Part shown: one piece after another, positions 977-46,689 of the stretch
Numbering within the stretch: position 1 is the stretch's first letter
Layout: each line of letters begins with the position of its first letter
The notes under the pieces: model-generated
What the model was told of the DNA's origin: nothing
Seen by the model: only the letters and a program-made list of their open reading frames with translations
Databases searched by the model: none
DNA from: Lineolata rhizophorae
Lineage: Eukaryota; Ascomycota; Dothideomycetes; Lineolatales; Lineolataceae
Length of the DNA: 64,000 nucleotides
Direction: 5' to 3'
Assembly (NCBI GenBank): GCA_010093515.1
Contig: MU001676.1
Coordinates: 940,666-1,004,665 of the forward strand
Position numbers and translations under genes: made by a program

Positions 977-1835
977 ATGGAAGGCCGTGAATCCGACCCC
1001 GGTCTTTCGGCCGGTCATCCAAAGGCAGAACTGGACATGGCCGCCAGGTTCTTTGCACACGAACTGCCGGCGGATAATTTGATGTTCCCAGACTTCGAGA
1101 CCGCCACAGCAAGCCGGGGCGTTATTTGTAGTCCTGAAGTGCACCACATCAACCAAAAAGAGCGCTTCGTGTATGTCGCCAAACTTCTGGAGTCCATGCT
1201 CAACGTTGTTGGGGTCAAAGATCATGATCCAAAAATGTCCAGACGCTTCAACGGCGTGGACGCTTACCCTGAGTACGCAATCGAAGCCGCCTGCTGGGAG
1301 CTATTTGTAGGTCTTCCTCCGCGCCCATTTACCAGGATATAAGTCATACTGATCTTAGCTTTAGGAACGCGTTGAGAAACTACATAACCAATCTGGACTC
1401 CCCCAACCCTTCTTGCATTGCCGTGGTAACAAATCGATTCATGATATCGTTACCGAAGAAGACATCGCTCTTCAGCTGCCCGTTCGTATGATGCAAATTT
1501 GCATCCTCTTACGGGTTAGTGGCCGCTTGTTCCTTGGTATTCCTAATAATCCGGCCTTTCTAATAGACAATGTTTGTGTAGGAGTGGAAGTCGGCATGCG
1601 ACAACGTCATCAATAATTATTCCATGGACCTCATTGTGATTGCGCCAGAGAAGATTCGTAAGGTTCGTATATCAGCTTAGCTCCACCAAATAAGCGGATA
1701 GTAGCTAACTCGTTGACATAGCGCAAAGAAGGCAACAAGCGTGGTAATTGTCGCAAGCAAGAGCGCCTTAAAGCCGGTAAGGCAGCTGAAAAGGCAGCTA
1801 AAATTGCTAGGAGGCGCCAGGAGAGGAATGGGTAA
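977..1835 (+). CDS. F1, WLL-RYH family protein (orphan family), 224 aa
   Basis: Exons 977-1306, 1365-1514, 1582-1662 and 1722-1835 join with all three introns in phase 0 and no stop, giving 224 residues. I start at the first in-frame ATG (977); the frame extends upstream to 881 without another ATG. Exon 1 ends in a helical block and AACWELF; exon 2 (50 codons) opens ERVEKLH; exon 3 (27 codons) opens EWKSACDNV and contains LIVIAP; exon 4 opens with the family motif RKEGNKRGNCRK and ends in a short K/R-rich tail (ARRRQERNG). It is the shortest member and lacks the long low-complexity N-terminus of its relatives. Function is unknown; the basic tail suggests nuclear or nucleic-acid association (inference). 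Donors are GTAGGT, GTTAGT and GTTCGT. Confidence 0.8.
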
Positions 1836-3423
1836 ATAACCCGCGTGGCATCTCCCATGGGCAACTGGGATTTCAACATTCCGGCGTTACAGAAATGGAT
1901 ACAGAGGCTACTATTCTGGTATTAGGAACGTGAACGGGAATAGCCTGCAATGACCAAGTGACTTGGATAAAATAACTTTCTCTGACTTGATCAAACGAAT
2001 ATTCAAATAAAGCACATGGGCATTGACCCGTGGCATCCTATGGTTCTAAATGTGACGTAGCCCGTACACTTTTATGCTATGTCTTGGTCAGCTCCTATTC
2101 ATCGCTCAAAATTTATTAAGCTGGTAGTTATGCGTTCGACTTTCTTTTACAAGAGTAGAAGATATTCAAAGCTACCGGAATACTAACCGTAGTGCCATCA
2201 CTTAGTATAGCCTCTGAGCTATAACGTTCTAGTCTTTAGGCTACCATGCTTGACTCTGGCGAAGGTGACGGGATATAATAACATAGAAAAACTGACCCCT
2301 GAAAAGGAGTCTTAACAGTCGTTAAACGCGGGGTTTTTTTAGTGATGTGTCACTCTTTCAAGTTAAAAGGAATTAGACCTCTGAAATTGATAGATTAGCA
2401 TCTGAAATATATTAAGGCGTTCAATAGACCCTAAGTTGCATACAGTTTCATTATCACAGAACTTCGAAGATATCTATCTTTAAACGTCTTTTGCTAAAGT
2501 AGCCGTTATTAAGATATTAAAGAGACCCTGTAAATCTGGCTAAAATGAAAATCTATAAACACTTCAGTAAAGCTTAATATCATTCAGGTGTGATTGCAGG
2601 CCACCAAAGTACCAATGCAGCTAAACCTGTCAGGAACATGCTGATACTGTGGCAGATAAACTTACCGCGTCATAAAGAGTCCTAGCTAGGGGAAGGTAGA
2701 AGCAGCTCAATATGGTACCACCGCAGCTAGCAACAACCCCGTGGCGGTATGGTTGATAGCACCGTACGGCAGCGCTTGCCACTAGCAGAGGATCTTACGA
2801 AATTGTACCTACGAACATCGAAAGGTATCGAGCATTTTGATCGGATCTAGGCGTTTCTCAAAACATTTTGTTCCCTTTAGTGAGGGAGCTAAATACTAGC
2901 ACAGGTATGCTCGAGAAGTGGACTACCTTCCGTAGTATTTTCCGCACCGAGAGCGCTGCCATCAACTGATCCGCGTCGCTAGATATAACAACCATCCCTT
3001 GTACGAATGCAGCTCCCTATGGAGACCCTAGGCCTAGAATAGTAGCCCCTAGCACGTAGAATCTTAGGCAGAGGCTTAGGTGAGGAAGAATTATCTTGTC
3101 AACCGTGGAAACCATTTTTATTCGAGTAGTGGCCCGCCGAGCTGCACCTCACTGAGTTCTACGTACAAATCTAGCGCGCTTCAACACATCAATTTCTTGC
3201 TTGGTCAAAAGAATACTGACATAGTATTGGAAGTAAGTCAAGTGCCACACCCTGCTAAAGCGATAATGAACCTCAACAGCGTGTTTCTCTCCAAGATTTA
3301 TGGGACATGTGGGGCTAGATTGCGGCTTACAAGGATGCTAATAGAGACAGAATTTCATATACCAACGCTACCGGTGCGGACACATTCCTCCAAAGATTCA
3401 TTCCAGACAAACTACCAACCCAG
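1836..3423. other. Gene-free stretch between F1 and the decayed copy F2
   Basis: No credible coding sequence on either strand; only short frames without family similarity. No repeat or RNA gene recognised. It may hold further-decayed sequence, but I could not align anything convincingly. Confidence 0.5.
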
Positions 3424-4678
3424 GTGACTAGAAAGAGGCAAGTAATATTGTACGACAGAAACGACGCACGCCACAAGGTAACGAGAGGCAGTATTTCGTC
3501 AGCGTACAACACACAGTCAGCACCAGAATTGGAGAGCCCGTATATGATACATTCAAAAGATAATCCTCCCTTGGAACGAACCCCAAGGTTCAGCTCTCTA
3601 ACCATGCTGACGAACGCGCAAGTAGCAGCCATTGGAGGATCAAAGAACAAGCTTAACAAATTCTCTCCAATGGTATCGCTTAACTCTACGCTATCTAGCC
3701 AATGAAGAACATACCAGAAATTAAACACGAAAGCAAGGGCACAAAGGAGCACCTTGGGTCCCACGGGCACACGCGCGAAGATATTGAAATGGCATGCCAG
3801 GAACTTCTACTAAACCGAGTCTGCCGATCTCAAAAGTCATCACTAGCAAAATAAAGGTAACGATCTTTACATGATAGCAAGCAACATGACTAAAATAACG
3901 TTAGATCGCATCGAAGCGTACGACTCACCGGCTACCTTTCTGGGGATTTATAGGTATGGAATAGACCGAAGTGACTGGCTTCTCTCCGCTTTTGGCTCTA
4001 CCTATGAAGTCTCCCAACCTTCCGATTAGTATTATAGAGATCCAAACTTTCCTCAAAACACGATACAGCCATGCAAGACGAGTCAAAAGCCTAGCTCGCA
4101 CAGCTTTTGATACGGGACTGGCAGTCGGCCGCAGCCAGCATCCTTGACGACAATTCTATCGACATCGTAATTTCGGCACCACGCTCAATGAAGACAGTCT
4201 GTCATGAAATTGTCGCAAATTTGGACTCAGTACATTGCTGAGATTTATTGGGGATGAAGTAACGAATCTGAAGGGCGGTATTGCCGGACAAGCCCTCATC
4301 CGTGGTAGATCGTCTGCGCCAAGCAAGGGCAAAGGTCAACGTATATTAGGGATTTTCCGCTCCCAAGGATAAACAGGATCAAGCCGCCTTAGGGATAAGT
4401 TAAGTCGGGCGCATTTATTGGAGGCAAACGAGGGTTGAAATGTTTTTCTTAAAGAAGAGTAGTCTTTCTAATTTCTTTATAAGATCCGGTTCCTGGCGGG
4501 GACAGTAACAACCGACTCAGACGCTTAATCAGCTGGAATCTCCGTGAAATCGGCCAACGGAAACGTCCCACGGAAACATGCCCGCACGTCCGGAAAGAAG
4601 CCTGTTCGTAGCAACTCTGCCAGAAAGACTCGAAAGACTGTCGGCAGTTATGGGCGCCTAATGACTTCTTTAGGATGA
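3424..4678 (+). pseudogene. F2, decayed WLL-RYH family copy
   Basis: Family blocks occur in order but no longer form a gene. At about 3770-3809 the frame reads TREDIEMACQELL, matching the end of family exon 1, but the expected GT donor at 3810 is CT. At 3904 comes DRIEAY, matching exon 2, with the acceptor junction one base short; the later exon-2 block LPISIIEIQTFLK is in another frame. At 4116-4196 a 27-codon exon-3 equivalent is intact (DWQSAAASILDD, then DIVISAP), but its acceptor AG is CG. A K/R-rich open stretch at about 4528-4678 could be the old tail. The ends are uncertain; 3424 is the start of the open frame leading into the exon-1 block. A transcribed gene with unusual splicing is possible but unlikely. 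Confidence 0.65.
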
Positions 4679-5326: not shown

Positions 5327-6723
5327 ATGTTTACTGCAATCAAAATCAAGAAGTACGAGCAAGACATGGAGTCCACGTCGGACATGACCGACTATACCGC
5401 CATGAAGGTCGACGCCGCAGCGCCCGGCTCGACAGGATTGCCAGCAAGCGCCGCTGCCAGCGGATTCGCGGCAGCGGCCGGCAATGCGGAAGCCCTCGCT
5501 CCCGCTGGCACGGTCGAGCCGCGTGCGACAGTTGGTGGCGGCGACCTTCCTGGCAACAGCACGGGCGCCAGTGGAACCACCCCAACTGCCGGCCCATTCG
5601 GCAGTTCCTTCGCCGGCACGGATGCGTACCATGGGAATGGAAGCGACGCCGCCTACGACAACCAAGGTGCTGGGTACCAGCACCACGGCGCCGCTTACCA
5701 GAGCCAGGGCGCATGCCGCGACGATAACAACCCCGTCCAGACGGGCAGCGGGGTTCCACTGCAGTTCAACAATGCTGTGGAGGCTCTTGCGGCACGCGAG
5801 ACTATCCATGGGCCTCCGTACTCCATGCCGAGTGATCATATTCGACGCCTGCTCGTCAAGGGTCTCGCGGATAGCATGATAAACCTCACAGAGGTGCAAG
5901 ACACGGATGCGAAGGTCCGCGAGCGCTTCGGACCAGATGGCCACGATCGTACGGATATTGAGATTGCCGCTTGGGCACTTCTTGTAAGTATTGACTGCTT
6001 GCTTCTGCTTGTCGCGGCTGGCAATGGCCTGATCGTGAGGTGTGTTTGGACAACTGCTTTAGCGACGCACGCACGAATATTAGGACCGTGTCGAGCGCTT
6101 CCATTCGGCAGAGGGTATCCCTGCGCCTTTTTGCTACGGCAAAGCCAAGGACAAGTCAGTGATGGCGCAAGTAAAGGATAGGGATATGAGCTTGGACCTC
6201 CCGACTCGCGTTGTTGCCCTCTGCGAACTTTTTAGGGTAAGTAAAGCCTCACATTTCGTACGGCTTAGCTGCAAGCGTACCTGGAGGCTAATGCACGATG
6301 ATACAGGCATGGAAATCTGCCGTTGTGAATCTCCTTGACGGTCACCACGTTGATGTGATCATCACCGGACCAAAATTGATCAAAGGTGTATGTGATGCCT
6401 GAGCATTCCCATTTGACTTAAATTTGGCCTAAGCGAGCACGTTAACTAATGTAAAAATATAGAGAAAGGAGGCCAACCTCAAAGCGAATCGCACGAAGCA
6501 CGATATGATCAAGCGGGGCCGCAGTGCTATGGCTAACAACAAGGACACCAATGCCAATGACGCCGGCAACTCTGAGAAAACCGACCGCGGCGATAACAAT
6601 GAAACCGGTCAGACCAACAATAGTAATACAGTCGGTGGCGCCGAAAATGATGAGAATACAGACTATGGCAGTGGGTATGGCTTCGATGGAAAAGCATTTG
6701 GGGCCATGAACTTTCAGGCCTAG
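5327..6723 (+). CDS. F3, WLL-RYH family protein, about 383 aa
   Basis: Exons 5327-5983, 6084-6236, 6307-6387 and 6463-6723, introns all phase 0. The first ATG (5327, MFTAIKIKKY) is used; an in-frame ATG follows at 5366. Residues 20-160 are Ala/Gly/Asp-rich low complexity. The conserved helix (SDHIRRLLVKGLADSMINL) and EIAAWALL close exon 1. Exon 2 (51 codons) opens DRVERFH and ends LCELFR; exon 3 (27 codons) opens AWKSAVVNLLDG and contains VIITGP; exon 4 opens RKEANLKANRTK and ends in an Asn/Asp/Gly-rich hydrophilic tail. Unlike its neighbours it has no strong NLS-like cluster beyond the motif itself. Its closest resemblance is to F4. Function unknown; the gene structure is well supported by alignment to its paralogues. 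Confidence 0.82.
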
Positions 6724-9482: not shown

Positions 9483-12092
9483 ATGTCATCGTCGTTCGGC
9501 CAGGGACGCCGCCAGACATCGGGGCGTCCCCAGCAACAGATGGACGAGTGGGGAGCTGCCGTCCCAGGTGGCTTCTCGTTCGGCCAGCTCCATGAGGGCA
9601 CCTCCGCCGCCCCCGGCACCACCACTGTCGTTGCCCCCACCGGCGTCGCTGCTTCTGGGTTCACCCTTCCGACCGGGTACCAGGGTATGAATTACGGCAA
9701 CTTGGGTTGGGCCCAGGGCAACGGCGCCTGGGACGCGGCAGCCGGGAGGACAGACCAGACCGGCGGGTTCGGTGACGGGTTCGGCCTGGACGCCAACATG
9801 GCGGGTTTCGATGGCAGCTGGAACACCGGCGGCTACGACGGCGGCGGGTACACCGGTGGCTACGAATTCGGCGTTGGCGCGCAAGCTTTCGAAACCGGCT
9901 ATGACGCCGGCGCTGCTGCCCAGCAACAGCAGCAGCAGCGACAGCAGCAGATGGCCCCGGCGGCTGGTCCCATGGGCCAGGCTCAACCGGCGATGACAGC
10001 GGCGGCGACGGGCGGCAGCGAGCTCCCGTACATGAACGACCCGGCTTTCTTCGCCCACCTCGAGGGTTTGTCAGCAGAGGGCTGGGACCGGGCGTTCAAC
10101 GCCAATGCCCACGACTTCCACCAGCAGGTGGAGTCGTCCGCAGACGAGCCTGGGCACCATCAGCAGCAGGGGTGGGAGCCCACAAACACCGACGACGGAC
10201 CTGAAAACTGGGCAGGCGCCGGGCCGGGCGCTTTTGACAACAGTGCTCCGGCCGGACCGCCCGCAATCGAGAACGACAATGGCGACGGCGGCTTCGACAA
10301 CTTCGCGCTGGCCGGTCTCCCCTCCTTTGGGGGCTTAGACGGCAGCGACGCCGCCAGCCTTGGTGAACCCGCGGTCACCACCACCGCTCCAATGACGCAT
10401 GCCGTCACGGCGAGCGCTCCTGTTTTCAGCCCAGGCGCTCCGACCCCTGTTGCTCCCGCCGCTGGTGGTCCCGCTCCATCCCCCCTCCCCTTCATTCCCG
10501 ACCACCCCCCCTCCTCCTTCTTCTCCTCCTCGCCCACCCTTTCCTCTCATCCCGCTCTCGCCTCTCCTTTCCCTCCCCACGTTCCCCCTCCGGCCTCGTC
10601 TTCCCTTCACCCTCCTCCCGCGCACGCGCCCTCTCTCTCGCCTTCGCGCCCCGCCCTTCCTGGGTCCGTCAGCACCCTCTCCTCCGCCGGCCTAGCCACT
10701 CTCTCCGCCGCCGCCACGCCATCCCAGGCTGAGCCGACCCCGCACAGCAACCTCACCGGCAGCCCTGCGCCAGCTCCCGCGCGCCACGGGCCTCAGACCG
10801 GGAGCGGCGTTCGCCGGCGCGGTCCCAACCGCAAACCTTCTGGCCGTGCGGCGGCAGAAGCTCAGGCGCATGCTCTGGAACCCCACCCGGTGGATCCGCG
10901 GGGATTTATCGAAGCGTCGACCCGGCCAGTCCCGTTTGCCGTCACCGCCGGCACTGCACCCCCGGCCCCTGCTGGCTACCTTGGCTCGTACCCTGGCCTC
11001 GGCAGTGCCGTTCCCGCCGACCCCGCCAACGCAGCTCAGGCCTTGGACCCGGCTGTGGCGCGTCTTATCGCCCCGCCGAGATTCAACAGCCTCGCTGAGG
11101 CGCGGGCCGGTCGGGAACACATGCGCGGCCCCGCGGAGCCCATGTCGGACAACTTGCGGCAGTGGAGTCTGCAGATGCTGAAGGCGGCGATGGCCAACGT
11201 GGACCGGGTCAAGGACAAGGACTACCGGATGAAGGGACGTTTCTGCGAGGAAGGGTACCGTCCGGAGGACATGGAGATCGCCTGTTGGCACTTGTTGGTG
11301 AGTTGTGTTGGGTGTTGTTGCTGTTGCGGCTGATGTTGTGTTTAGTCTTTGATGTTTGTCTTGTGTTCTGCCACAGCCCTGCCACTGCTTCCGCGACTGC
11401 TCCCGCTGTTGCTGTTGCCACTGTTTTTGCTGTTGTAGCCGCTGCGTCCGGACGAGAGCGAGGGCGCTTACTGGGGTTGGTCGGGGGCGATAGGACCTTG
11501 TGGAAAGGTACCACACCGAAGCTGGCATCCCAAAGCCGTATACGTGGGGCCAAGGGGATAGATCGATCTTTTGGGAGGTCAAACAGTACCAATTCGACCT
11601 CGACTTGCGCTCGCGCCTCGTCGAAATCGGAGAACTGTTGAGGGTATGCGTGAAAACCTGCGATCTTCCCACAAGAAATTCCTGCTAACATGCCGTGAAC
11701 AGGACTGGAAGTCCGCCGCTGTCAACGTGATGGAGGGCCACAACATCGATCTGATCGTTGTGGCCCCCCAGACTGTCAAGAAGGTACGCCGTTGTTCCCT
11801 AACCGAGATCGAATGGAAAGGAAAGAATGAATTGATAATTAACATCATGGCGATGTAGCGCAAGGGATCCAACCACGAGTGCAACGTCAAGAAGCAGGAG
11901 TACATCTCGAAGGGGCGCAAGCGGCTGCGTGGCGAGGACGTCGACGGCGACAACCAGGAGGACGCTGTACAGAACAACGCCTTCGACAGTGACGGATACA
12001 TTCTCGCGGGCGCCACTCCCGATACTACGACTACCGAATCGACCAGGAAGCGACCTGGCAGGCCTCCTGGCAAGCGCGCGCGCAAGGAGTAG
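9483..12092 (+). CDS. F4, WLL-RYH family protein with long low-complexity N-terminus and AT-hook-like tail, 759 aa
   Basis: Exons 9483-11297, 11494-11643, 11703-11783 and 11859-12092, all introns phase 0. Residues 1-500 are low complexity: Gly/Phe/Tyr-rich (about 60-130), a Gln run (about 147-156), then Pro/Ser/Ala-rich (about 300-430). The conserved block starts at about residue 555 (SDNLRQWSLQMLKAAMANV) and ends EIACWHLL. Exon 2 (50 codons) opens DLVERYHTEAGIPKP; exon 3 (27 codons) opens DWKSAAVNVMEG and contains LIVVAP; exon 4 opens RKGSNHECNVKK. The C-terminus, TRKRPGRPPGKRARK, has an AT-hook-like GRP core within an NLS-like basic cluster, suggesting chromatin or A/T-rich DNA contact (inference). 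At 196 nt, intron 1 is the longest of the gene. The function of the conserved domain is unknown. Confidence 0.82.
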
Positions 12093-13249
12093 ACTCGATG
12101 GGCCGAGGCGATTGTCCAAGGACGGTCAGATTGGGTGGAGAGTTTACTGGACCGTGGACTTTCATCATCTTCGCGGAGAGAGATGTACGAGGAGTGAACT
12201 ATTGTTGCTTGTGCCGCTGCTCACACCATTGCTCCAGAGAAGGCAGACTATGCCGTCGACTCGCAGAAGGACATGGCCAACATGGCTTTCTCAAATGGCA
12301 TGCTTGGGTGGAACAGGGCATGAACAAGGAAGTCCATGCTGAATCCCTTGTGCAGGACGATGTCGTTGCGCCTGATACTTCAGTGTTCCGCTCGGATATG
12401 AATTGGACCGGGTTATAAGAAAAGGGCATCCTGTCGAAGTCCTTGGGGAGCATTGGATGGGCTGCAGGTTAGACATGTTATGAGATTTTATTCCCTTGCA
12501 CAAACGGTTGAAGCAGAGGAAATCCACGTATCCCACACTGGATTAGGAGGCAAAAGTGAGCATATGGAAGGGATTGGACGGGTTAGGAGATTTCTACAAA
12601 GAAATGCTTGAAGAGCAGTTGGCCAGGAGACGGTGCTAGTTGATAGCTCGTCCACCAAGCCGAGTTGCGACCAACCGAGCGACGCGAAGCAGATGCGGCA
12701 TAATTCATAAAGACTTCGCTTTCATTCCTCCGCTATACGAACCAACTCTCAAATTCGCTATGCCCGCCACAACAATGAACCGTGCTGCAACGCGCCGGAA
12801 TACCCGGAAGAAAAAGCGTGACGTCGGAGGACGGAAGGAAGTCGGAAGAAGGTTTGGCTCGAGCGCCGACGGCCCCGGCCACAGAGGGATCCATCGCCTG
12901 GCGCGCTGTGGTCCTGTAGTTTGCCGTAGCGCTACCACCGTCTTGCTGGCGTCACTGCGCTTCGCATCCTAGCGCCGACTGATCCTGACGGAGACAGGTC
13001 AAAATACGGAGTATCTGAAGAGGAAATTCCGCCCAATTCCGCACTCTCCCCTCTGTCATTGCATCTCTTCAAGCTGCTTGATGTAGCTCATTTTTCCTGC
13101 ATACGTTCGGCTGCGAGCGCGGCTGCTCTTTCTGCCCTTTAATTCTCGCGCGCTGTGCTTGGGAGAAAGAAGAGCGCCCCTAGCTGCGGTCCGGGGCGAC
13201 TCGAACGACGGCGCGTCACATTGGGAGCTTTGGCGGCGTCCTTACCGCT
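12093..13249. other. Intergenic between F4 and nde1
   Basis: Only short unsupported frames. It contains the 3' region of F4 and the likely promoter of nde1 (GC-rich from about 13100). No repeat or RNA gene recognised. Confidence 0.5.
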
Positions 13250-15618
13250 ATGATCCCGGGACGAGCAACGGGTGGACGATCCACGATGAGGGTTCCCGTG
13301 GGTCCGGCTCCTCGATTCAACCACGGGAGATCTGCGGGACAGTTCCAGGGCCTCCTGCCCTCGCCAAAAACGACGACGCGTCGGGGCGTCAGCATCCTCA
13401 CACCACGCACCACCCACCGACCGGCGATATCGCGAGGGTGCTCCTCGTTGCACCCACGATGCCGTCTCTCCGCGCCATTTCAGATCCGCCTTGCCGCTAC
13501 CGATACTACCGGCGCCGCCGCGGAGGCGGCCGTTAAGAGAGGCCGCCTCTGGCCCCTCGTGTACCGCGGGCTCGCCTTCACCGGCTTCTTCTTCCTATCC
13601 GCCTCGTCCGTGCTTGCCGCCATCTTCATCTACGACGCGACGACCTACCGCGAGGCGCCGACCTTCGAGGACATATCGCTATCCGAGTACGCGCTGCACC
13701 CGCGGCGGGGCGGGCCCAAGAACCTGCCCATCGCCGAGCACCTGGTCGACGACGACGAGTCGCCCGAGATGAAGGCCCAGAAGCACAAGCCCAAGCTGGT
13801 CATCCTGGGCACGGGCTGGGCTAGCGTCGCCCTGCTCAAGCAGCTCAACCCCGACGATTATCATGTCACCGTCGTCAGCCCGAGCAATTACTTTTTGTTC
13901 ACGCCGATGCTACCGAGCGCGACGGTGGGGACGCTGGAGCTCAGGAGCCTGGTCGAGCCGGTGAGGCGCATTGTTACGAGGGTGAAGGGACATTTTATTA
14001 AAGCCATGGCCGAGGATGTCGAGTTTTCGGAGAAGCTGGTGGAGATATCGGCCGTGGGACCGGGTGGAGAGAAAGAACATTTTTATTTGCCCTACGACAA
14101 GCTAGTCATTGCTACTGGTACGTGGGTCGGATCTATTCTGCCTTAACCGCATGCTCCGTCTCCGTGTTAAGTTGCTAATCCAATTCGACTACCCAGGCTC
14201 CGTCACCAACCCCCACGGTGTCTCCGGACTCGAGCACTGCCACTTCCTCAAAGACATCTCCGACGCACGCTTGATCCGCAATACCGTAATCCGCAACCTA
14301 GAAACTGCTTGTCTGCCGACGACCTCAGATGAAGAGCGCAGACGGTTGCTCTCTTTCGTCATTTGTGGCGGTGGCCCCACTGGGGTCGAGTTCGCTGCCG
14401 AACTGTACGACATGCTCAACGAGGATCTGTGCCGCATCTTCCCCAAAATCCTGCGCTGCGAGATCTCGGTACACGTTATTCAGAGCCGGGGCCACATCCT
14501 GAACACGTATGACGAGGCGTTGAGTCGATACGCTGAGGTGCGTATTTTCTGACGTCGTCTGGTATCTAATAATTGTGTTGCTTCCGGGTGACGGCTTAGC
14601 TAATGACTCATAAAACCATAACAGCAACGCTTCGCCCATGAAGCCGTCGAGGTCCTCACAAACTCGCGCGTTAAGGAAGTTCTCTCGGACCGCATTCTCT
14701 TCACGCAGAAAAACGAAGCCGGCGAAATCGTTATCAAGGAGCTGCCTATGGGCTTCTGTCTGTGGTCCACGGGCGTCTCGCAGACCGAGTTCTGCAAACG
14801 CATTGCCGTGAAGTTAGAACCGCAGAAGAACCGGCACGCTCTGGAGACTGACACGCACTTGCGTCTTATTGGGGCCCCCCTCGGCGACGTCTATGCGCTC
14901 GGCGACTGCTCCACGGTCCAAAACAACGTCTCCGACCACATCGTCACCTTCCTGCGAACGCTCGCGTGGGAAAAAGGCAAGAACCCCGAGGACATGGAGA
15001 TATCGTACTCGGACTGGCGCAACGTGGCCAAGCGGGTGAAGACGCGCTTTCCGCAGGCGGCCGACCATCTGCGTCGCCTGGACCGCCTCTTTGAGCGCTA
15101 CGACGCCGACCAGTCCGGCACGCTCGACTTCGGGGAGCTGCACGCGCTGCTGCGCCAGATCGATTCCAAGCTCACCAGCCTGCCGGCCACGGCTCAACGC
15201 GCCCACCAGCAGGGCCAGTACCTTGGCAGGAAGCTCAACAAGATGGCGCAGGCCGCGCCTGGCATGCGCCTGAATCAGCTGGATTACGGTGACATCGACG
15301 AGGCTGTCTACAAGGCGTTTGAGTACCATCATCTCGGCAACTTGGCTTACGTGGGGAACGCGGCCGTGTTCGATATCAATGGCATGGGGTTGAAGGGCGG
15401 GCTGTTGGCCGTGTATCTCTGGCGGAGCGTGTATTTCGCCCAGAGCGTGAGTCTGCGGACAAGGATTCTGTTGGCTATGGATTGGACAAAGAGGGCGTTC
15501 TTTGGTAGAGGTGAGTACAGCGGACTTCGGCGCGTAGCATTCCCAAAGAAGGGAAATATGAAACACTTCACTTGGCATAGGTATGCTGATGTTGGTCATA
15601 GATCTCATGAATTTCTAA
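13250..15618 (+). CDS. nde1: External alternative NADH-ubiquinone oxidoreductase (type II) with EF-hand
   Basis: Exons 13250-14117, 14197-14537, 14625-15510 and 15602-15618 give 703 residues. It oxidises cytosolic NADH at the outer face of the inner mitochondrial membrane and passes electrons to ubiquinone without pumping protons. An Arg/Ser-rich presequence is followed by a membrane segment (GLAFTGFFFLSASSVLAAIF). The first Rossmann fold (LVILGTGWASVALLKQL) binds FAD, the second (SFVICGGGPTGVEFAAEL) binds NADH. An EF-hand (DADQSGTLDFGEL) lies within the C-terminal half, as in the Ca2+-responsive Neurospora NDE1. The last exon encodes only the end of the terminal DLMNF, typical of the family. 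The start could instead be the in-frame ATG at 13286. Its 3' end converges on esf1. Confidence 0.93.
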
Positions 15619-15996
15619 AACGAGCGTGTTTGGGTTCGTATCCGGGCGAGATTCGGCCGTTGCTCCTTTTGGTTCCATTTGGTGGCAAACCTAGAGGCAT
15701 CGAGGATGGGAGGAGGTGGATTCCCTAGCTACAGGCGTAGGACGGATAACACGGGCATTATATATGTGTCAGACTCGTGCTAAGACACCAAGCGTTTTTA
15801 CTTTGTTCTTTTGTCTTTTGTACAGCGGGTCTGTCGTCAGTGCGACAAAAGACAGATTAAAGTATAGTTCAACAGCGTCTTTGCAGGTCTCCCTTACCAT
15901 GCGCCATGCACTCTGTGCCCACCGACTTAGATTGAACAGTGCCAAAAGATACAAAACCGCAAGTGGCCTAGTGCAAACCCGCACCAAAATGGCCCA

Positions 15997-30800: not shown

Positions 30801-31202
30801 TTTAGCGGCAAGAGCGTGCCGCCACACATTGCCATGACGGGGGAGGTGAGCTTGAGGGGCAAAGTCACGCCCGTTGGCGGGATCAAAGAGAAGTTGATCG
30901 GAGCCTTAAGGGCAGGGGTGAAAACGGTGTTGCTGCCTGTGGGTAATAGGAAAGATGTGAAAGATTTGCCCGAGGAAGTACAAGGGGGTTTGAGGATCGA
31001 GTTTGTTGGGTAAGTACCTTTCCATTTGTGGCGCCGGGTTGTGGCGGCGTCGCGGTGGTGTGGCGTTAATAGTGGGTTCTACGCAACACGAAAGCTAAAT
31101 CGGCCCGTGTACAGGCATATTTGGGAAGCCATGCGCCACGTCTGGCCGGATTCACACTGGCCGGGCGAGCGCCATTGGCACGAGTTCGAAAGCCGGCTGT
31201 AG
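27841..31202 (+). CDS. pln: Peroxisomal Lon protease, 940 aa with C-terminal SRL targeting signal
   Basis: Exons 27841-28318, 28753-31009 and 31115-31202. An ATP-dependent AAA+ serine protease and chaperone of the peroxisomal matrix that degrades misfolded or oxidised proteins. An N-terminal LON substrate-binding domain is followed by coiled helices and the AAA+ module with Walker [10 protein letters not shown] (about residue 493) and Walker [11 protein letters not shown]. The proteolytic domain has the Ser-Lys dyad, with the nucleophile in PKDGPSAG (about residue 828). The last exon restores [20 protein letters not shown] and ends in SRL, a type 1 peroxisomal targeting signal; reading into intron 2 would stop without it. 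Intron 1 is unusually long (434 nt), but joining its ends gives the expected [23 protein letters not shown] separates it from mitochondrial Pim1. Confidence 0.94.
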
Positions 31203-34200
31203 ATGCAGCAAAGACGCCACCATGAGGTTTGTAGTGGGATGGCGTTGTCGGTTCAATTTGTCTTCCGTGTACATGCGCCATGTACAGTAACAACGAAAGC
31301 GTAGATTTGTCGGTTACCCCTGTTTTAGGCTAATTTCTCTTTTGCACAGGTTTGGAGTGGGCGGGTGGAAGGTGAGTTAGGGTGTTGTGTTTTTATAGTA
31401 GTATGGGGTGGTATAAAGGTGGGCAGGGCAGTCAAAGGCGAATGGAAGTTGCTTTAGTCTGCTCCCCGCTGAACCGGTCCGCTTCTGGGGACGTCATTGG
31501 GGTTTTCCTACCGGTTATGGGATGAAGTATCCCCATGTTATGAAATGTCCATTTGGACAATTGGTGATTAGCGTGGGAATGCCTCTATCTTCAACATACT
31601 TCGGCGCTCTAGTAACAACGGTTATCTGTTGATTCATGAGCGATTTGGAAGGTAGTATTAAATTTACTATTTTTCGTCCCCTTTTTTTCTCTTTTAATTG
31701 CCATCGCAATTTAACTATGCTCATTATGTATTTCATTTGCCTATTCCCATCCTCCAGGGACTTGCTACATGCTATTTGAATAGCATATATGCTGGTCAAA
31801 AATGGCTTTACTGTATTGGATGAGAGTTGCACTACGGATTTATGAAACAAATTGCACCCAAGGATCTCAAGAGTTATCTTCAAATTGCTGACCAAGCCTA
31901 TTTCAATATTCTCATCATTGAACACATCCAGTAGCCTTATCAGTGGCTATAATCATTACCTGGCCGGTGGACACCCGACATCTGCAGGCATCACGCTTCA
32001 AGAAGTTAGAGATATTGTGGACATCATTTTGATGGAGAAGAGAGAGAAGCAGTTCATTTCATGATGGTCGAGGCCAAGTCTCCCTTCCAGGGCGCTCATA
32101 TGCATATCTAATCCCATGAAACTCTGAAAACCCCGAAAGCCGATTCCAACTCCAGAGGACAGCAAATGAACCCGAACCCCATTACTTTTGGTTGATGGAG
32201 GATGATAGTGGATGCAGGACGAGCATCATTATGGCTCGTAGCCACTCCTCCAATGATGCCGATGCATGAAAAAAAAAAATCGAACTCCTACGGTCCTCGG
32301 CCGGACATCTTAAAACGCATAAACACCAATGACTCGAAGTCAACCGTCGAAAACCGCAATGCAGACACCCATGGCTCTGAGCCGATTCCTCTGGATGCAA
32401 GCGTAAGTCTCGAAAGGTTGGTTCTGATGGCTCGCAGCCATTCTTCCAAGGAGAACACAAGGCGGTACCCCCATGGCCCGTGATCAATCTGGAAGGCAAA
32501 AGAAAGTGGCGGCACGCCGCCAATCGTCCGAAAGTGGCAAAGCAGAAAGCAGGATTTCAATCGCTTTTGGCTAGTCGCATGCTTCATAAAACTCAATGCC
32601 AGGAATCCTCGGTCGATCTTCCAAAGCTCCAACTTCGATGTCTCTCCGCTTCCTGATGCTTGGGTCTCGACCCTGATCACCTTGACTTGGTCCTGTCCGA
32701 ATGCATTGCCGTACATATCCGAGGCCCTTAAAATCTTGCAGCTAACTCGAGAGATACCAGACTTAACTATGGGTCCCCCAACCCATTTCAGTTCTGGTTC
32801 ATGATCGAAGAAGTTTGATTTCGGATTTTCGGCCTTTTTGGTGTCATTATGTGGTGGCTTTCGGAACACTTCCCCCAAAGTGGCCGTCGCCTCGCAAATA
32901 TTCGGACCCAAGCAGGCAACTCATTCGTTTGATTACGGTCCTTCGGAAGGATTCTCTTCGCTGTTCTCAAGTACTTCTCATGCAGCTTTCTTGTCTTCGC
33001 TCTTTGGTGTCCGACGGCTGGATAGGACTCTGATCATTCGCGCCTTCGAGATTTCAACATCCCTCGGATACCCTGTCGATCGTCCTCGAAACTCAAAACA
33101 ACTGCCAATCAGCAAGCAAAAACCCTGACCAAAGCCGACCCTAAGGTGAAATATTTGACAGATGAAATCGGCTCGTCCTGACTCGGAATTGACGAACGCA
33201 GTGAAGGAAAAGGCAGAGAGAGGTAATGAGAGGGGCTGAGATTCGCAACAGCTAGCAGCCAGTCTTCCTTGGAACGCAACGCATAAAATGGCAAGCCCAC
33301 CCCTGACGCGCGAAATTCACAACTTTCCGGCCGAACAATCTCTTCTCGAGGGATCCTTTCTCCTCAACACCCTTCTTCAAATGGCCTGGTGCTCACCAAG
33401 TGTGCGGCTCCACAGCAATCTTGAGCCTAAAACACACCCTGCTGCCCCTCGGAAAGCCAAAAGAAGATGAATGCGTTGGCAGAGAGGAGAGGAGGCGTGA
33501 AACTAACAGGAACGATCTACGTCTGGAGACATGCTTTCTCCTCAACACCCTTCCTCAACTGACCTGGTGCTCGCCGGGTGTGCAGCTCCACAGCAATCTT
33601 GAGCCTAAAACACACCCTGCTGCCCCTCGAAAAGCCAGAAAAAGAAGAATGCGTTGGCAGCGAGGAGAAAAGGGCCCCCAAAAAATTCGAAAGATCCTTT
33701 CGCCAATGACTCACCTCAACACCCTTCCCCAGCTGGCCTGGGGCTCACCGGGCGTGCAGCTCCACAGCAATCTTGAGCCTAAAACACGCCCTGCTGCCCC
33801 TCGGAAAGCCAGAAAGGGAAGAATGCGTTAACGGCGAGGAGAAAGGACCCCCAAACACGAAAGACTTTCCCCAGGGATCCACTCCCCTCAACAACCTTCT
33901 CGACTGGCCTGGTGCTCACCGGGCGTGCGGCTCCACAGCAATCCTGAGCCTAAAACACGCCCTGCTGCCCCTCGGAAAGCCAGCTGAAAAGGAGTGCATT
34001 GAGAGCGAGAAGAGAAGATCCCTGAGGAATAAAATGCTGGCTGGTACACGATCGCAATACAAGCTAGGCGACACACGTTCGGGAAGCCGCTCTTTCCATA
34101 CATCCGCCCCAATAGCCTGGTGCTCACCGAGGGCGCAGCTCCACAGCAATCTTGAGCCTAAAACGCCCCTTGCTACACCTCGGGAAGCCATTGGGGCGGA

Positions 34201-34725
34201 GCCATGAGAGAGGAAAGGCGCCGACCGAACGATGAGACCCTGACATGAGCGCGGAATGTACAAAACCAATGGTCAAGACAAGAAGTGCAATATACGCGCA
34301 AACGCAAGAAACGTCATTTCAAGGGTGGGCAACCAAATGCAGAAACGCAACGTGGATGTGAAAGCATGCTAACAGAAACCAATACTCAGCCCGCAAACCC
34401 CGCTTTCTACCCTCCCAACCCGAGCTGTTGCCGCTAGTCTCCTCGGGTTCCGTTGAATAAACAATGCAATGTCGGCAAGTTGAAAGGCTCATGCGGAACT
34501 CGCAAAATTCTCGAACCAAGGACGCGTATAGTCGTTAGAGCGGAGGATGCCCGCAAGCTTACTCCGATTTTTTGGTCTTTTTCTCTTTTCCTTTTTGGCT
34601 TGTTGTTCTTTTTCAACGATTCAACTCTGGACCGATCGACGCTTCTACACGTGCGGAACGTAGGACTCCACCGAGACCCTTTCGGACTACACATCGTCAT
34701 AGCAGCCCTGAACGAGGACGCCACT
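31203..34725. other. 3.5-kb gene-poor interval with tandem repeat
   Basis: No supported gene. 31.2-33.3 kb is lower in GC with scattered frames. One minus-strand frame (32288-32911) lacks an ATG start and family similarity; its product contains SLEEWLRAI, which recurs in another frame about 200 nt away, suggesting an old local duplication. 33.36-34.2 kb is a tandem repeat (listed separately). The end is the 3' region of F5. Confidence 0.5.
33355..34205. repeat. Tandem repeat, five copies of about 171-208 bp
   Basis: The core GCTCCACAGCAATCTTGAGC starts at 33407, 33585, 33759, 33930 (one mismatch) and 34138, spacings 178, 174, 171 and 208. Each core is preceded by a version of GGCCTGGTGCTCACCGGGCG and followed by CTAAAACAC and GCTGCCCCTCGGAAAGCCA; between the cores lie diverged purine-rich segments. 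Copies 1-4 are closest; copy 5 is more divergent. Reading frame is not kept from copy to copy, so this is best called a minisatellite/satellite array rather than a coding repeat. Confidence 0.85.
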
Positions 34726-38660: not shown

Positions 38661-40713
38661 TCAATTTTGCTGCGGAGGTTCTGGATAGTGATGATAATTT
38701 GCTCCGCCCTGGTAGTTCCAAGCTCCACTAGGAGCACCGTAATGACCATATGGCATCGTGGCCATGATATGTGCAGCTTGTGCACTTGTTGGACTGGCCA
38801 GTTGTGGAACTTGGCCCGCATCGTTATGGCTGTAGCAACTTATAGCGGTTGCTGGCCCGTGTACGTAATCGCCAGGAAAATATGAAGCCGCAGGAGCCGC
38901 AGGAGCGTCCCGAAGAGCTTGTTCGCTCCATGGTCTATACCGCTCTTCGTAGTACGGATTTGTTTTGGAGGGCTCGCCCGGTTTCGGTATAATGGGCGTG
39001 AATCGTGAGTTCAACGTCTGCATATTGTACCGAACGTCTTCCTCATCCTCATCAATTCTCCGCCTCTTTTGACCTACCCTAGAGTGTCGTCCACGCGTCG
39101 GAGCCACGTTAGGGATCTCGTTACGTTTTGCTTTGGCGAAGGAAAGCATCGAGCCTTTGTGCTCGTTTGACGTTTGATTGTCTCCCTTACGCTAACAATG
39201 TGTCAGCTCTCCGCCAAATGTGTCGAGAATATGTACGAACTTTGTCAAAAGTACGAGGACCTATAACGAATAGGTTTACCTCCCGCCCCTCCATAACGTC
39301 CTTGCAGGTTTTCTTCCGGGACTATGATCCTGTGAGTACACCTCGAGCAAAAGGCATCGTAGTCCGAGTGAGAACTCGCCTTGAGGCAACGGACGATCTC
39401 CTTCGTTCGTTGGTCGAACGGCATCTTCTGCTCTTCAATGCTAGCGAAGCTCAGTCGAATGGTTTCGATGCTTCGATCGTCACGCGTCACCGAGTCGCGA
39501 GGCGTATGTGGCTTTGTGCACGATTGTGGCGGAATGGTCAGACCCTTGGTATGGTAGCGGATGACCTGGTTCTAATACTTTCTCAGTATAATGGCTTCCA
39601 TCAACGTTGATGAGAACAAGTTGAAGTTGCGACAACAGACAGGACCTTCTAGGACAGGCAGGACTTTCGAGAACGGACAGGATTTGCGTCATTGGGAAGG
39701 ACTTGTTGAATGAGCAGATCTTACGTGGACAAGCAGGATTTGTGTGAATAGGCAGAGCTTACGTGACCAAGCAGGACTTGTGAGAACAAACAGGACGCCT
39801 ATGAACAAGCAGGACTTCCAAGAATATACAAGAAATTCGAGGAAAAACAAGATTCGCGAGAATAAACAGGGCTTGCAAGAGCAGGGAGGACTGCGAGAGC
39901 AAGCAGAACTTGCAATAACAGACCCAACTTACGAAAACAAACATACATTAACCGGCCTGAAAGATAACAACAAAAGAGGTTAACGCTCTACTAATAAATG
40001 GATAATATAACAACATATCAACAATGTAATAAGAATCAAGGCGCACGGTAACAAGTTATAGTAAGTCACACCATACATACCAACAAGTTCCAACAGCCCG
40101 CTAAGATCTGCTTGTTGCTCCAGTACTTCGCCTTCGCATTGGAAGGGTTGAACCAAAGAAGTGCCTCCGCGCCAGCCTTATCGTGTGTCTCTGTTATATC
40201 CCGCATGGCCCGGAAGAAGACCTGTACAAGACGCTTCTTCATGTCGTTTGAGGGGAGAGAAATCAGTGGTGCTTCCTTCAGGATTGGAAGTGCACGAAGA
40301 CCAGCAGAGGTATCATCGAATTCCATATCTGGTGAGGGAACCGTCGCCGCCGGTATTTCGGTCAACTGGCCCAACAACTCATTATCTTCCCAGGAACCAT
40401 CCGGCTCCGGCACGCGATCCTGAGCAGCTTCATTGAGCATGATGATAACCGGCTGTTCTGGGTAAGCCCTCAGGCCTTCAGCCAGGTGCATGTTGCTCGA
40501 GAAGCCTGCGATTTGCGATGACGCAAGCTGGGGGTCAACGGGCGCGGAATGCGAACGGGGAGAACTGCCTGCAAGAGCGTGGAGATATGCCGGGTCTACG
40601 GTGCTGTTAGGACCGATGCAGACGTCCTTGCGGTCTACAATATGGTATGTGTGCTGGAACTGCTGCTGGCCCTGTGTTCGATCGTCGGTCGCTCTTGCCT
40701 TGCCCTTGTGCAT
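38661..40713 (-). CDS. F6, WLL-RYH family protein, 478 aa, with a GC-AG intron
   Basis: Exons (minus) 40081-40713, 39380-39571, 39241-39321 and 38661-39191, phase 0. It starts MHKGKARATDD. It shares with F5 and F7 the block DRVPEPDGSWEDNELL ... LPILKEAPLISLPSNDM, then helix RLVQVFFRAMRDI and AGCWNLL. Exon 2 (64 codons) opens NQVIRYHTKGL and ends VRCLK; exon 3 (27 codons) opens SRKKTCKDVMEG and contains LFVIGP; exon 4 opens RKGDNQTSNEHK, then has an NLS-like KRRRIDEDEED and a Pro/Gly/Tyr/His-rich tail. Intron 2 begins GC (AAG|GCGAGT) where paralogues have GT; the alternative GT nearby would break the phase. At 509 nt, intron 1 is largely made of degenerate short repeats. Function unknown. Confidence 0.78.
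39605..39950. repeat. Degenerate minisatellite inside intron 1 of F6
   Basis: At least a dozen imperfect copies of a unit of roughly 20-25 nt resembling AACAAGCAGGACTTGCGAG fill most of the intron. Clear copies include GACAAGCAGGATTTG, GACCAAGCAGGACTTG and GAACAAGCAGGACTTCC. Copies differ enough that the array is old or was never homogenised. Confidence 0.7.
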
Positions 40714-41580: not shown

Positions 41581-44020
41581 CTATGCCTGTCGCTGCCGCT
41601 TCTTACTACCACCGTCGTCTCGGCCTTCGTCTGCTTCCTCGTCTCTACCCCGCTTTGTTCCGCTGCTGCCAGCACCACCCAGCCCGAAATTCTCCATATC
41701 TTCGCCCGATTCTAAGCCGCTTGGGTTAGGCGGAGGCCCATAGCCAGGCAAATCATTGCCCGAGCCGAACAGCTCCAATTCCTCGTTTGTTATGGCAGGG
41801 TCCAGATATCCCTGTATGCCGGAGGGGCCCAGATCGCCGATATTCGCTCCATAATTCATGGTAGGCGCCGTTGGATCGGCCTGGACGTTGTACTGGCTAA
41901 TCCAGTTCGACGGGCCAGCTGTGGTTGGCGTACCATAGGCGGCTGGATCCAATGGATCGCCAAATCCAGTTGTCGGCTCTTGGGCCTGGCTGTAACCGCC
42001 CTGGGCCTGGACATAACCGCCCTGGGCCTGGACATAACCGCCCTGGGCCTGACCATAAACACCCTGGGCCTGGCCATAACCACCCTGGGCCCAGGCACTC
42101 TGGGCCGGGGTTCCCCCTTCAATATAACCTCCAAGCCCGTACTGTTGGGAAGGTTGGTGCTGTGGAATCTGCTGGTGGGGCTGATAGCCCGGGTAGGCCA
42201 GAGGTTGACTAGGCCCATGGTAAGGATTGTCCATCTGTTGCTGTTGCTGGAATCCTTGTTCCAACTGGGCTACATATTGAGCGTAAGTGTGCTTCGGGGG
42301 ATTCTGGCCGCCCTGCTGTAGAGTTTGGGCTGGCAAGCCCGTGTCCTGCGGCAGCTGTTGGGCCTGCACATCTTGTTGGGCTGCACCGCGTGAGTTTTGC
42401 CGGCCTCGGCGTCCACGTCCCGCCCTAGGCCTGCCTCTGGTACCACGTCCGCGCTGGGTCTGGCTCGCACGCGGGGTCTGGCTCCCACGTTGGGTCTGGC
42501 TTCCATGCTGGGCCTGGCTTCCACTCTGTTGGTATTGTGGTGTTTGACCGTGTGATGGGGGTTGTTCGGGGGGTTGTTCAGCTGAGCCAAATAGAGCGCG
42601 TGTAGCCTCATCTCCAAGCAATTTCTGTGCTGCTTCTTGTTCCTTTTCAGCCTCCTTGCCCTTATTGCCTGTTCGGGCATTCTTTGCATATTCTAGCTGC
42701 TCTTTTTTGGCTAGGTTTCCCTTTGTATTCATTCTCTTACGCTGCCGTGGAAGTCAGCAGCTAGCAATACAAAGAGCAGAGAAGGTATGAACGAACCGTA
42801 TCATATTGCTCAGGGCAGATGACAAGCTGGTTGATCTTCCAGCCGTCCATGACATCCACGCAAGCTTGCTTCCGTTTCTAAGAGTAAGAAATTAGTATCT
42901 ATAAACGTCAAAGTTGCTCTAATCACATCATTTACCTTTAGTACGTGGACAATAGCTTCCACCCGCGCTTCAAAAGGTATCTGAGCATCGGCATTGGAGT
43001 ACCAGGACCACGGCTTAACCTGACTGGTACCTTGGAGAGGAGGCGCGGCAAGACCTTTCTGGTGATACCGGATGATTTGGTTCTGTTCATTGTGAGTTAG
43101 TTTCACCATTTCTAACCCCGGTAAACGGCGTTGCTTACCAACAAGTTCCAAGCAGCGGCCTCGACCCGGTCGTTGGCCCAGTATTTGTCCCAATTGGCGA
43201 CACCAAATGCCCTTACCGCTTCTGAGCCGGGGGCTTCAGACACGCTTTCTACATTCCGAATGGCAGCTACCAAAACCCTAACCAGTTCGCGTTGCATTGC
43301 GCCGGAAGGTACTTCCGGGAGCTCTCCCGCTTTCTTGATGATTGGGAGTGATTCAAAGGCCTCCTGGATGGACTGGTAAGACAAGGGTACGCTGTACGAG
43401 GCGACGTTGGCATCCATCAGCTTCTTCAAGAACGGTTGGTCGGTCCAGGGGCCTTCGGGCTCCGGGTGGCGGTCGCCAAGCTGGTTTGGGACAACAAACT
43501 CGGTTTGGTCAGCGCTGAGTGTTGGTAAGGTATGCTGGCCAAATTCTTGTTCGTGGTATTCATTGATCCTCTCCTTCATTGAGCGATACTTTGAGCGAAA
43601 CTCCTCCACGGTAGGAACATGATGTTGACCGCGCTCGGCTGTATGGGAATGCTGTTGGCCCTCAAGGACCTGAACATATTGTGGATTGCCGATGGTGGTG
43701 CACTGTGGATTGCTGGCAGCAGTGTACTGTAGGCTGCCAGCGGCTGTATACTGTGGGTTAGCCGCAGTGTACTGTGGGTTGCCGGCAGCGGTATACTGTG
43801 GGTTAACCGCAGTGTGCTGTGGGCTGCCGGCAGCGGTATACTGTGGGTTAACCGCAGTGTGCTGTGGGCTGCCGGCAGCGGTATACTGTGGGTTGCTGGG
43901 CCCGGTGTACTGTAGGTTGCCGGACGCGGTGTATTGAACCGGTTGGCCACGGTTCATCGTAGCACCTTCTATATTAGCTTGCGGCTCCTCGAATGGCTCT
44001 GTGATATCCGGATGCTGCAT
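41581..44020 (-). CDS. F7, WLL-RYH family protein with two coding minisatellites, 756 aa
   Basis: Exons (minus) 43139-44020, 42936-43082, 42797-42877 and 41581-42741, phase 0. Residues 25-110 are repeats of the type NPQYTAAGSPQHTAV. Next come the block DRHPEPEGPWTDQPFL ... LPIIKKAGELPEVPSGAM, helix LVRVLVAAIRNV and AAAWNLL. Exon 2 (49 codons) opens NQIIRYHQKGL; exon 3 (27 codons) opens KRKQACVDVMDG and contains QLVICP; exon 4 opens RKRMNTKGNLAKK, then a charged helix. A Gln/Arg/Gly segment (GRGTRGRPRAGRGRRGRQ, RGG-like) and GGYVQAQ repeats with a G/Y/Q composition like prion-like or FUS-type domains follow. It ends in a bipartite NLS-like KRGRDE...KKRQRQA. The composition suggests a condensate-prone, RNA- or DNA-associated nuclear protein (inference). 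Function unknown. Confidence 0.8.
41980..42084. repeat. 21-nt coding minisatellite in F7, five copies
   Basis: The unit CTGGGCCTGGACATAACCGC+C (21 nt) repeats from about 41980 to 42084, with two identical copies at 42001-42021 and 42022-42042. On the coding strand it encodes GGYVQAQ-type heptapeptides, so copy-number change keeps frame. Confidence 0.85.
43700..43935. repeat. 45-nt coding minisatellite in F7 exon 1
   Basis: A 45-nt unit (15 codons, about NPQYTAAGSPQHTAV) occurs as two identical copies at 43801-43845 and 43846-43890, flanked by diverged copies and half-units. The identity points to recent duplication. The period keeps reading frame. Confidence 0.85.
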
Positions 44021-45077
44021 TGTGCTGCTAGGTTAAGAGGTTGAATATCGCCTAACAAGTGTAGGTACACCGATAGAGCTTCAATGTAAGGGACAAAGTG
44101 AAAAAAGAAGGGTTGTACCGGGCGGTAAGGAATACCAATGGACACGCGTGTCGCAGTGTTGCCGGTGGGCCAAATAAGTCCAAGGTCTCCAACCAGTGAG
44201 TACTGTGGAGGATATGATAGATACCGGGGAGTGAATTTTATATGTGAATTTGTTGGATAACACCTGTTCGCTTGCATAGCATAGCTCATCAGTTACTAGC
44301 TAGCCGACCACCTGTCACCCTCTCTAGATCACTACTATTCGCTACTAGATCTAACAATCTCTTATAGAACTTTGTTTTTAACTAGTCGCCAATGAATTAT
44401 AATATGTTGGCTCTTTCATATGTCATACTTCTGCATTTGCTGAACTGTGCTATGTGCTGGCCACTCAAGCAAACATATCTTCTACATTTTGGGACACGAA
44501 CCTCTGAAAACCACAGCTATTTCACGTAGTCAGCTTGAAATGTGATATGTGTAGCTCCGCAGCTTTTTTGACAGGAATATTCACGGGTGTGATGGGCATA
44601 GGAATGGTTTTGGTGAATGTTCAATAAGCGACAAGATGATAGACCTTAGGATTCTGCCCTTCTACGATTCATGAAGGCTAAGTGACCTCACAATGCTGTT
44701 CTATTTGTAGCCCAGCAGTTCATTGCTTTAGAATGCTGAGGTTTGACCATCACATTCTCTTGAAATTGTTCCGTATCGAAGTGTCTTTCGGCAACTCCTC
44801 AACCTTGGCCGGGGCTTTTGCATAGCTCCCGATAGACAGAGAGCTGAACATAAAGTGTGGAAATGCTCGGCCAGGGCCACTGCACTACTTGGATTTCTAC
44901 TCTCTAAAGAAACATACTAGCACTACCACAAAAGCACCTCTATAATTGTACAATGCCTCCATAAAACTATCCAATGTACCCAGACAGAAAACATCAAGCA
45001 ACATTACCGACCGGCCTAGGATATGCACCATAAAACCCATTCAGCAGCCGGTATTTGAAACACCCGTTGTAATCCTC
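44021..45077. other. Intergenic between F7 start and F8 end
   Basis: About 1.06 kb without a supported gene; AT-richer at 44300-44700. It should contain the F7 promoter and F8 3' region. Confidence 0.45.
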
Positions 45078-46689
45078 TCATTCCTGGCCTTCATTGCCTT
45101 CTTCTTCGGATTGGTGGTCTGCCGGGCTAGCGGCGCGAGAGCCACGGCGCTGACGATGGCAAGCCATAGAGGCGCCCCACGGAGCTTGCTCGGTCGGGTC
45201 TCTAGGCATGGGAGAAATAGGCATGCCATGATTCTAAATGTGGGGTTAGTTACTTGTCGGCTTCGCTCACTTAAAAGAAGTGATCGCTCAGAACCCAGCA
45301 AAGGGTTGTTTCGGAGAATTTGGCTGGGTAGACTGCTTACGTATCCCTGAAAGAATGGTGACATCGGACACGGATTGAACCCATGGAACGGATGCGGCGC
45401 CATACCTAGGCCATAGCCAGCGGGAACCTGCTGAGCATGTCCCGGGGCCGCTATGCCTAGGGTTGGGGGTGGGACGTGGGGATTCGCTAGGAGCGGCGTC
45501 CAGACTTGCGGCAAATTGATACGCTCTTTGCCCGTATTATCGCTTGCGGAAGACAGAGCCGGTCTCTGGTCCAGCTTAAGACGCTTTGGGGAGGAGTTAG
45601 ACTCCTGAACCTGGCTGATTCTAGTACCATGACTGTCGTCTTGCGCAGGTTTGTCGTGGGTCCCGCTGTTGGATTGGCTACGAGCCTTACGGGCCTGAGC
45701 TAGAATGTCCTTCTTCCCACGGTTTGTTCGCTGGTTCAGATTTTTTTGCTAGGTACGGGTAAGTAGGCACTGATCAGTTTCAAGCTCAGTGAATACGTAC
45801 GCCTTCCGAACGTATCGGCGCAGCAATGAATTGATCGATATTCCGCAACATAACGTCGACACAAGTTTGCTTCCGCTTCTGAACGAACCCGACAATATTA
45901 ATCAATGTACGTTGAAAGCGCACGTCAGGCTTACTTACCTTTAGGCAGTCCACTATCCACTCCATTCTAGGCCCGAACATGGCTTTCTTTTCGCTCTGGG
46001 GGAGTTTCAAGTCTTTGTACACCGGGAAACCGAACCGATGATAATGGATCGTACGTTCCTGTTTACTGTTAGTATCGAGAAAGATACTAATAAGTCGGGC
46101 CATCTACCAGAAGCGTGTGCGCGGCGGCTTCGATCTCTAGATCCGACCAGCGCAGCGGTTGGCCATCCTTTCCAAACCAAAGAAGGGCATTGGAAGACAC
46201 GTTATCACATGCAGTAGAGGTGTCCTTCATAACGGCGACCAGGATCTGGACTAGCTCGTGCCTCATGGCCTGAGACGGCTCGCCGGCTTCCATCGGTGGA
46301 CCACGCATAAACTCGAGGGTTTTTTCTCCTTCCGCGCTCGATCTATACGCTAGAGGGCGCAGAAGAGCGCCGGGAACTTTGGAATGGAGCTTGGAGAGAA
46401 GCGCTTGGCCATACCACTGGCCATCGGTGGCCGAGCCAACCTGAGTGGCAGCGTCCTGCTGGCTATTCCCGTCGCTGTGCTGCTGGAGGTGGGCCACAGT
46501 CGGTTCGACCGGGCCAGGCTGCACAGCTGGCGTTGCAATGTCCTCGGCCATGCCAGTGTCCTTGCACTTGCCAGTGTCCTCGGGCTTGCCAACGTCCTCG
46601 GGCATACCGATTTCGGACACGCCAGTGCGCGAGGCCATGTCTGAATCCTCAGACGGGGGCCGCGAGAAGAAATGAGGCAAATCTGGCAT
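45078..46689 (-). CDS. F8, WLL-RYH family protein, 447 aa
   Basis: Exons (minus) 46108-46689, 45939-46058, 45801-45878, 45341-45748 and 45078-45233, phase 0. I start at MPDLPHFFSRPP (46689). Residues about 15-60 contain a Thr/Gly/Glu/Asp repeat (PEDVGKPEDTGKCKDTG). The conserved region has a weaker upstream block (DGQWYGQALL), then EPSQAMRHELVQILVAVMKD and AAAHTLL; Trp is replaced by His in this last motif. Exon 2 (40 codons) opens ERTIHYHRFG and ends VDCLK; exon 3 has 26 codons and opens KRKQTCVDVM. Exon 4 opens QKNLNQRTNRGKK, the family motif with Gln for Arg, followed by NLS-like SPKRLKLD. A fifth exon is inferred because the donor GTAAGC and an acceptor TTTAG join MSPFFQGY to NHGMPISPMPRDP, whereas reading through gives an unlike tail. 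Function unknown. Confidence 0.76.

Follow-up and report, generated by a model that had tools for sequence, protein, structure and literature searches.

What is the set of related genes that lies in two facing clusters within the 64,000 nucleotides at 940666-1004665 of contig MU001676.1 of the fungus Lineolata rhizophorae, and how did they come to be arranged in this way? A sequence-only reading of this whole stretch, referred to here as the window, had picked out seven apparently intact genes and one decayed copy, F1 to F8. We have very little doubt that F1 and F3 to F8, together with the decayed F2, form a genuine gene family. It would seem most likely to be an unnamed family of the Pezizomycotina, encoding partly disordered proteins that have a helical core and are perhaps chromatin-associated. 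We assembled the models of F1 and F3 to F8 by hand, using the remaining copies as a guide, and then checked them by script. Each of the seven, once spliced, reads from an ATG to a stop codon with no stop in between, and the coordinates, from the start of F1 at 977 on the plus strand to the start of F8 at 46689 on the minus strand, agree with those given previously. The members are as follows.

F1, 977 to 1835, plus strand; exons 977-1306, 1365-1514, 1582-1662 and 1722-1835; 224 amino acids.
F2, 3702 to 4196, plus strand; decayed copy; pieces resembling exon 1 (about 3702-3845) and exon 3 (about 4107-4196) are left, and the flanking frames hold stops.
F3, 5327 to 6723, plus strand; exons 5327-5983, 6084-6236, 6307-6387 and 6463-6723; 383 amino acids.
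F4, 9483 to 12092, plus strand; exons 9483-11297, 11494-11643, 11703-11783 and 11859-12092; 759 amino acids.
F5, 37352 to 34726, minus strand; exons 37352-36693, 36631-36098, 36029-35772 and 35706-34726; 810 amino acids.
F6, 40713 to 38661, minus strand; exons 40713-40081, 39571-39380, 39321-39241 and 39191-38661; 478 amino acids.
F7, 44020 to 41581, minus strand; exons 44020-43139, 43082-42936, 42877-42797 and 42741-41581; 756 amino acids.
F8, 46689 to 45041, minus strand; exons 46689-46108, 46058-45939, 45878-45801 and 45748-45041; 495 amino acids.

The seven intact genes have in common a core of about 150 residues, arranged as four ordered blocks. When each spliced protein was scored against a profile made from the other six, all seven reached between 100.5 and 158.5 bits, with F8 the lowest, while the best of 2000 shuffled cores for each profile gave 6.7 to 9.7 bits. 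The earlier observation of seven intact genes and one decayed copy in two facing clusters is confirmed. The four blocks are not equally well conserved. When the exons were tested singly, each with 1000 shuffles, blocks 1, 2 and 3 exceeded the shuffles in every one of the seven, though only narrowly for block 2 of F8 (9.4 against 8.4). Block 4 did so in five, by margins of 0.6 to 3.6 bits, and was no better than the shuffles in F5 (1.4 against 14.8) or F6 (8.9 against 9.3). The description of four ordered conserved blocks thus holds strongly for three, the fourth being little more than a basic segment.

A common splice architecture had also been proposed, and this is true of most copies. All 21 introns of the seven genes are in phase 0 and end in AG, and 20 of them begin with GT, the other being a GC-AG intron (intron 2 of F6). 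Three intron positions are common to six of the genes. The exception is F5, where intron 2 is absent, so that exons 2 and 3, carrying blocks 2 and 3, are fused, and where there is one extra intron far towards the 5' end. Six genes carry block 3 on an exon of its own; this exon measures 81 bases in five of them and 78 in F8. The agreement in intron positions is partly a matter of construction, because we consulted the other copies when setting the splice sites by hand. Independent of that placement is an excess of branch-site matches (CTRAY) within the final 45 nt, found in 13 introns where 3.5 would be expected from shuffling. Intron 1 of F6 is 509 bp long; it contains four short direct repeats with units of 38 nt (39651-39801).

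The core could be assigned to no named family, as the earlier reading had held. Scans of Pfam-A with seven proteins (two whole and five partial), the seven cores and ten exon pieces gave no match above the cut-off (best sub-threshold E value 0.013); as a control, nine of ten neighbouring open reading frames (ORFs) were matched at E ≤ 1e-5. With the seven cores, NCBIfam gave a best E of 0.12, none accepted, and PHROGs nothing at 0.1; since these libraries are prokaryotic or phage-type, their null results say little about fungi. A search of the PDB with the seven-core sequence profile, to a limit of E 10, returned one match (E 0.44), made partly through an apparent expression tag. Single pieces found no relatives in prokaryotic genomes (an F5 piece), viral contigs (pieces of F7 and F4) or plasmids (an F5 piece). 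Nothing on the F family appeared in the literature as judged from titles and abstract openings, and a paper may still exist. Fungal genomes commonly contain gene families that lack a named domain. Unnamed proteins with the pattern R...K..C..L..G...V..P...K..N...N..K are probably common in the Pezizomycotina; their residue order resembles that of the F blocks, and a putative membership of the F proteins among them serves as a lead only. We therefore do not call the F family new to science.

The decayed copy was left out of profile training and so could be looked for afresh. The core profile found its exon-1-like piece with E 0.0055 and its exon-3-like piece with E 0.0013, on the expected strand and in the expected order, exon 1 then exon 3. 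The exon-1 profile alone matched 3702-3809 with E 0.01 and the exon-3 profile alone gave only E 2.1. BLAST matches at the site were obtained with F4 (E 0.008) and F1 (E 0.08) as queries. Repeat-induced point mutation (RIP) was considered as the cause of the decay; the composite index is negative over F2 (-0.04 and -0.54) and this explanation is unsupported. In the window as a whole, the composite RIP index rises above zero in a single 1-kb stretch, 2001-3000 (+0.23), where the GC content is 42%.

Is the family confined to this locus? We searched the organism's own genome (30,968,845 bases in 48 contigs) with all seven cores as single-protein queries. Because this search works exon by exon from single proteins and takes only the top candidates on to scoring, it might overlook very distant members elsewhere. 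The matches were confined to the locus, bar one fragment on contig C9 and one stretch on contig C4. The former (832272-832484; E 0.003 in the core search) is a 214-bp match to F6 with 79% DNA identity, running from the end of exon 3 through intron 3 into the start of exon 4. The retained intron indicates that the fragment moved as DNA. In the 3.5 kb examined around it, neither block 1 nor block 2 was detected (best E 0.41 and 1.5). The tally of eight copies is accordingly correct for F1 to F8 and incomplete for the genome, which holds this partial copy as well. The stretch on C4 (BLAST E 0.034) was rejected as a further member, the profiles giving no support. Profile searches of 80 kb upstream and 70 kb downstream showed no extra copies (best flank E 0.43).

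A dispersed fragment that moved as DNA, along with a decayed copy and tandem repeats nearby, is what might be expected if the genes were what is left of a transposable element, whether domesticated or active. We consider this extremely unlikely: Pfam scans of the F genes gave no transposase or integrase domain, the spliceosomal introns lie at conserved positions and every full copy found sits at one locus. Repeat scans, which included no dedicated boundary search, gave only three short imperfect inverted pairs.

How the two clusters arose can be approached through the relationships of the seven cores. In an unrooted maximum likelihood tree (LG+G4, 200 bootstraps) the plus-strand and minus-strand copies are split with a bootstrap of 100 on the longest branch (1.34), while branches inside the clusters have bootstraps of 61-77. 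Core identities follow the same division: plus-strand copies share 36.4-40.5% with one another, minus-strand copies share 29.3-38.5%, and comparisons across the two strands give 20.5-28.0%. Such low identities make recent homogenisation of the copies by conversion unlikely, and the description of the proteins as fast-evolving would follow from the core identities of 20-41% only indirectly. The genes between the two facing clusters are ordinary housekeeping genes, the outer limits of this block being taken from the earlier reading and from the ORF list:

Block between the clusters, 13200 to 31013, strand not assigned; NDH2-type NADH dehydrogenase, ESF1, a WD40 protein, chorismate mutase, ALG3 and Lon protease (by Pfam).

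Tandem duplication combined with one inversion or translocation had been put forward for the layout. As the strand groups separate with a bootstrap of 100, it is not simply the result of a late inversion cutting an array of interchangeable copies. The tree still allows for an old A-B array, carrying the housekeeping block, to have undergone one inversion, which would yield the facing arrangement. If the root lies on the long branch, the split between A and B would predate the duplications inside each cluster; if it lies inside one cluster, the other cluster would be an offshoot of it. We would therefore picture the history only in outline. An ancestral tandem pair may have given two founders, A and B, which either an inversion or the arrival of the housekeeping block between them would have separated. 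Local multiplication of each founder would have followed; one copy would have decayed, and a piece of F6 would have reached another contig as DNA.

Local multiplication, a decayed copy, a dispersed fragment, strong divergence and the lack of a named domain could also describe conflict genes, a selfish (spore-killing) or self/non-self recognition family that multiplies and decays in a local cluster in the manner of wtf and Spok. Those fungal drive genes are likewise multi-copy families, whereas the F copies are strongly diverged, bear introns and were found at one locus. We regard this explanation as clearly unlikely, since recent full-length duplicates, as expected in an active arms race, are absent at core identities of 20-41%, and all seven genes retain their open frames and introns.

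Outside the core the proteins differ greatly, and the claim of a conserved core with very variable ends is borne out by both the length and the composition of the tails. F1 has 59 residues ahead of the core and 9 behind it, while F4 has 533 before the core and F7 has 359 after it. F4 has a long N-terminal part rich in A, G and P and an AT-hook-like basic C-terminus, F5 a very acidic C-terminal tail, and F7 tails rich in G and Q with an AT-hook-like stretch and RG-type stretches. Order-promoting residues are scarcer in the tails than in the core, the difference being greatest in F3, F4, F5 and F7. The coding sequence of F7 also contains in-frame tandem repeats, of NPQYTAAG type in the N-terminal part (43674-43918) and of GGYxQAQ type in the C-terminal part (41981-42112).

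These features prompt the question of whether the F proteins act in the nucleus. Matches to K[KR]x[KR] are more frequent than in shuffles for F4, F5 and F7, being equalled in 0.05-0.1% of shuffles. The AT-hook-like stretches of F4 and F7 have a GRP core flanked by basic residues, found in about 1.4-1.6% of shuffles before correction. In this they may resemble AT-hook chromatin proteins; they differ in that only two of the seven copies have such a stretch and that the Pfam scans returned no AT-hook model. Several observations weigh against a nuclear, chromatin-associated role. The K[KR]x[KR] pattern is at chance level in F1, F3 and F6 and marginal in F8 (6% of shuffles), some of the patterns counted fall within the core or on an exon junction, and a bipartite nuclear pattern is found in none of the seven proteins. 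No DNA-binding domain was recognised in the F genes by the Pfam scans, and within 700 bp upstream of the seven genes shared words are no commoner than in shuffles. Structure prediction, carried out on two unspliced pieces, gave models of low confidence (mean predicted local distance difference test score, pLDDT, 53.8 and 58.0). The only well-predicted element is a helix across the exon 2/exon 3 junction of F5, with a pLDDT of 92 for its best ten-residue block; helices were also predicted in the exon-1 part, with block pLDDT of only 47-61. The core is probably mainly helical. The proposal of nuclear proteins with nuclear localisation signals in their ends thus has support in F4, F5 and F7 and not in the family at large. 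Because the nuclear patterns are clear in three copies only and both models are of low confidence, we hold the nuclear, chromatin-associated role of the F proteins as a whole only tentatively, at somewhat less than an even chance.

Were the F proteins to act in the nucleus, a step less firmly based than the history above, the core might serve as a protein-protein or dimerisation bundle. The lysine- and asparagine-rich segment behind it (RKxxNxxxNxxK) would, together with the basic or AT-hook-like tails, contact nucleic acid or chromatin. The acidic, Q-rich or A/G/P-rich tails may recruit partners, by analogy with many transcription or chromatin cofactors.

The same basic, K/N-rich block 4, with the Q/G-rich tails and the RG-type stretches of F7, might instead indicate low-complexity proteins associated with RNA or ribosomes, with the basic stretch behind the core as the part that would bind RNA. 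This we think rather unlikely, given that the Pfam scans revealed no RNA-binding domain and that block 4 is the weakest of the four and at shuffle level in F5 and F6. Divergent genes that lie close together and have no known domain would also be in keeping with secreted or host-directed proteins of a fast-evolving cluster. None of the seven N-termini has a signal peptide, as judged by eye, and F4, F5 and F7 have their basic nuclear-type patterns above the shuffles, which makes this explanation very unlikely.

Some further features of the window were noted. Between the Lon protease gene and F5, five tandem copies of a 152-nt unit occupy 33344-34226 at a spacing of 171-208 bp; they are 61-100% identical to the first, and the first 330 bases match nowhere else in the genome. 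An ORF at 56611-57636, adjoining the RPN1 gene, matches DUF7730 (E 6e-12). The ORF for a RIO2 kinase has 4gyg, a structure from Chaetomium thermophilum, as its best PDB match, at 326 bits as against 204-226 for the other seven sequences listed, which makes a filamentous ascomycete a likely source of this fungal DNA. The window contains no known RNA at gathering score and no tRNA.

A wider interpretation joins the tentative nuclear role to the history of the locus. The core might be a so far undescribed fungal domain found in nuclear proteins, with the opposed clusters forming an old, locus-bound system of conflict or genome regulation whose copies diversify through their disordered tails; we think this clearly unlikely. 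With its seven alignable spliced copies in one genome, the locus allows an initial profile of the core to be made and offers a defined place for testing. If it is true that the core is a nuclear domain common to many filamentous fungi, then a class of hypothetical proteins would gain a name.

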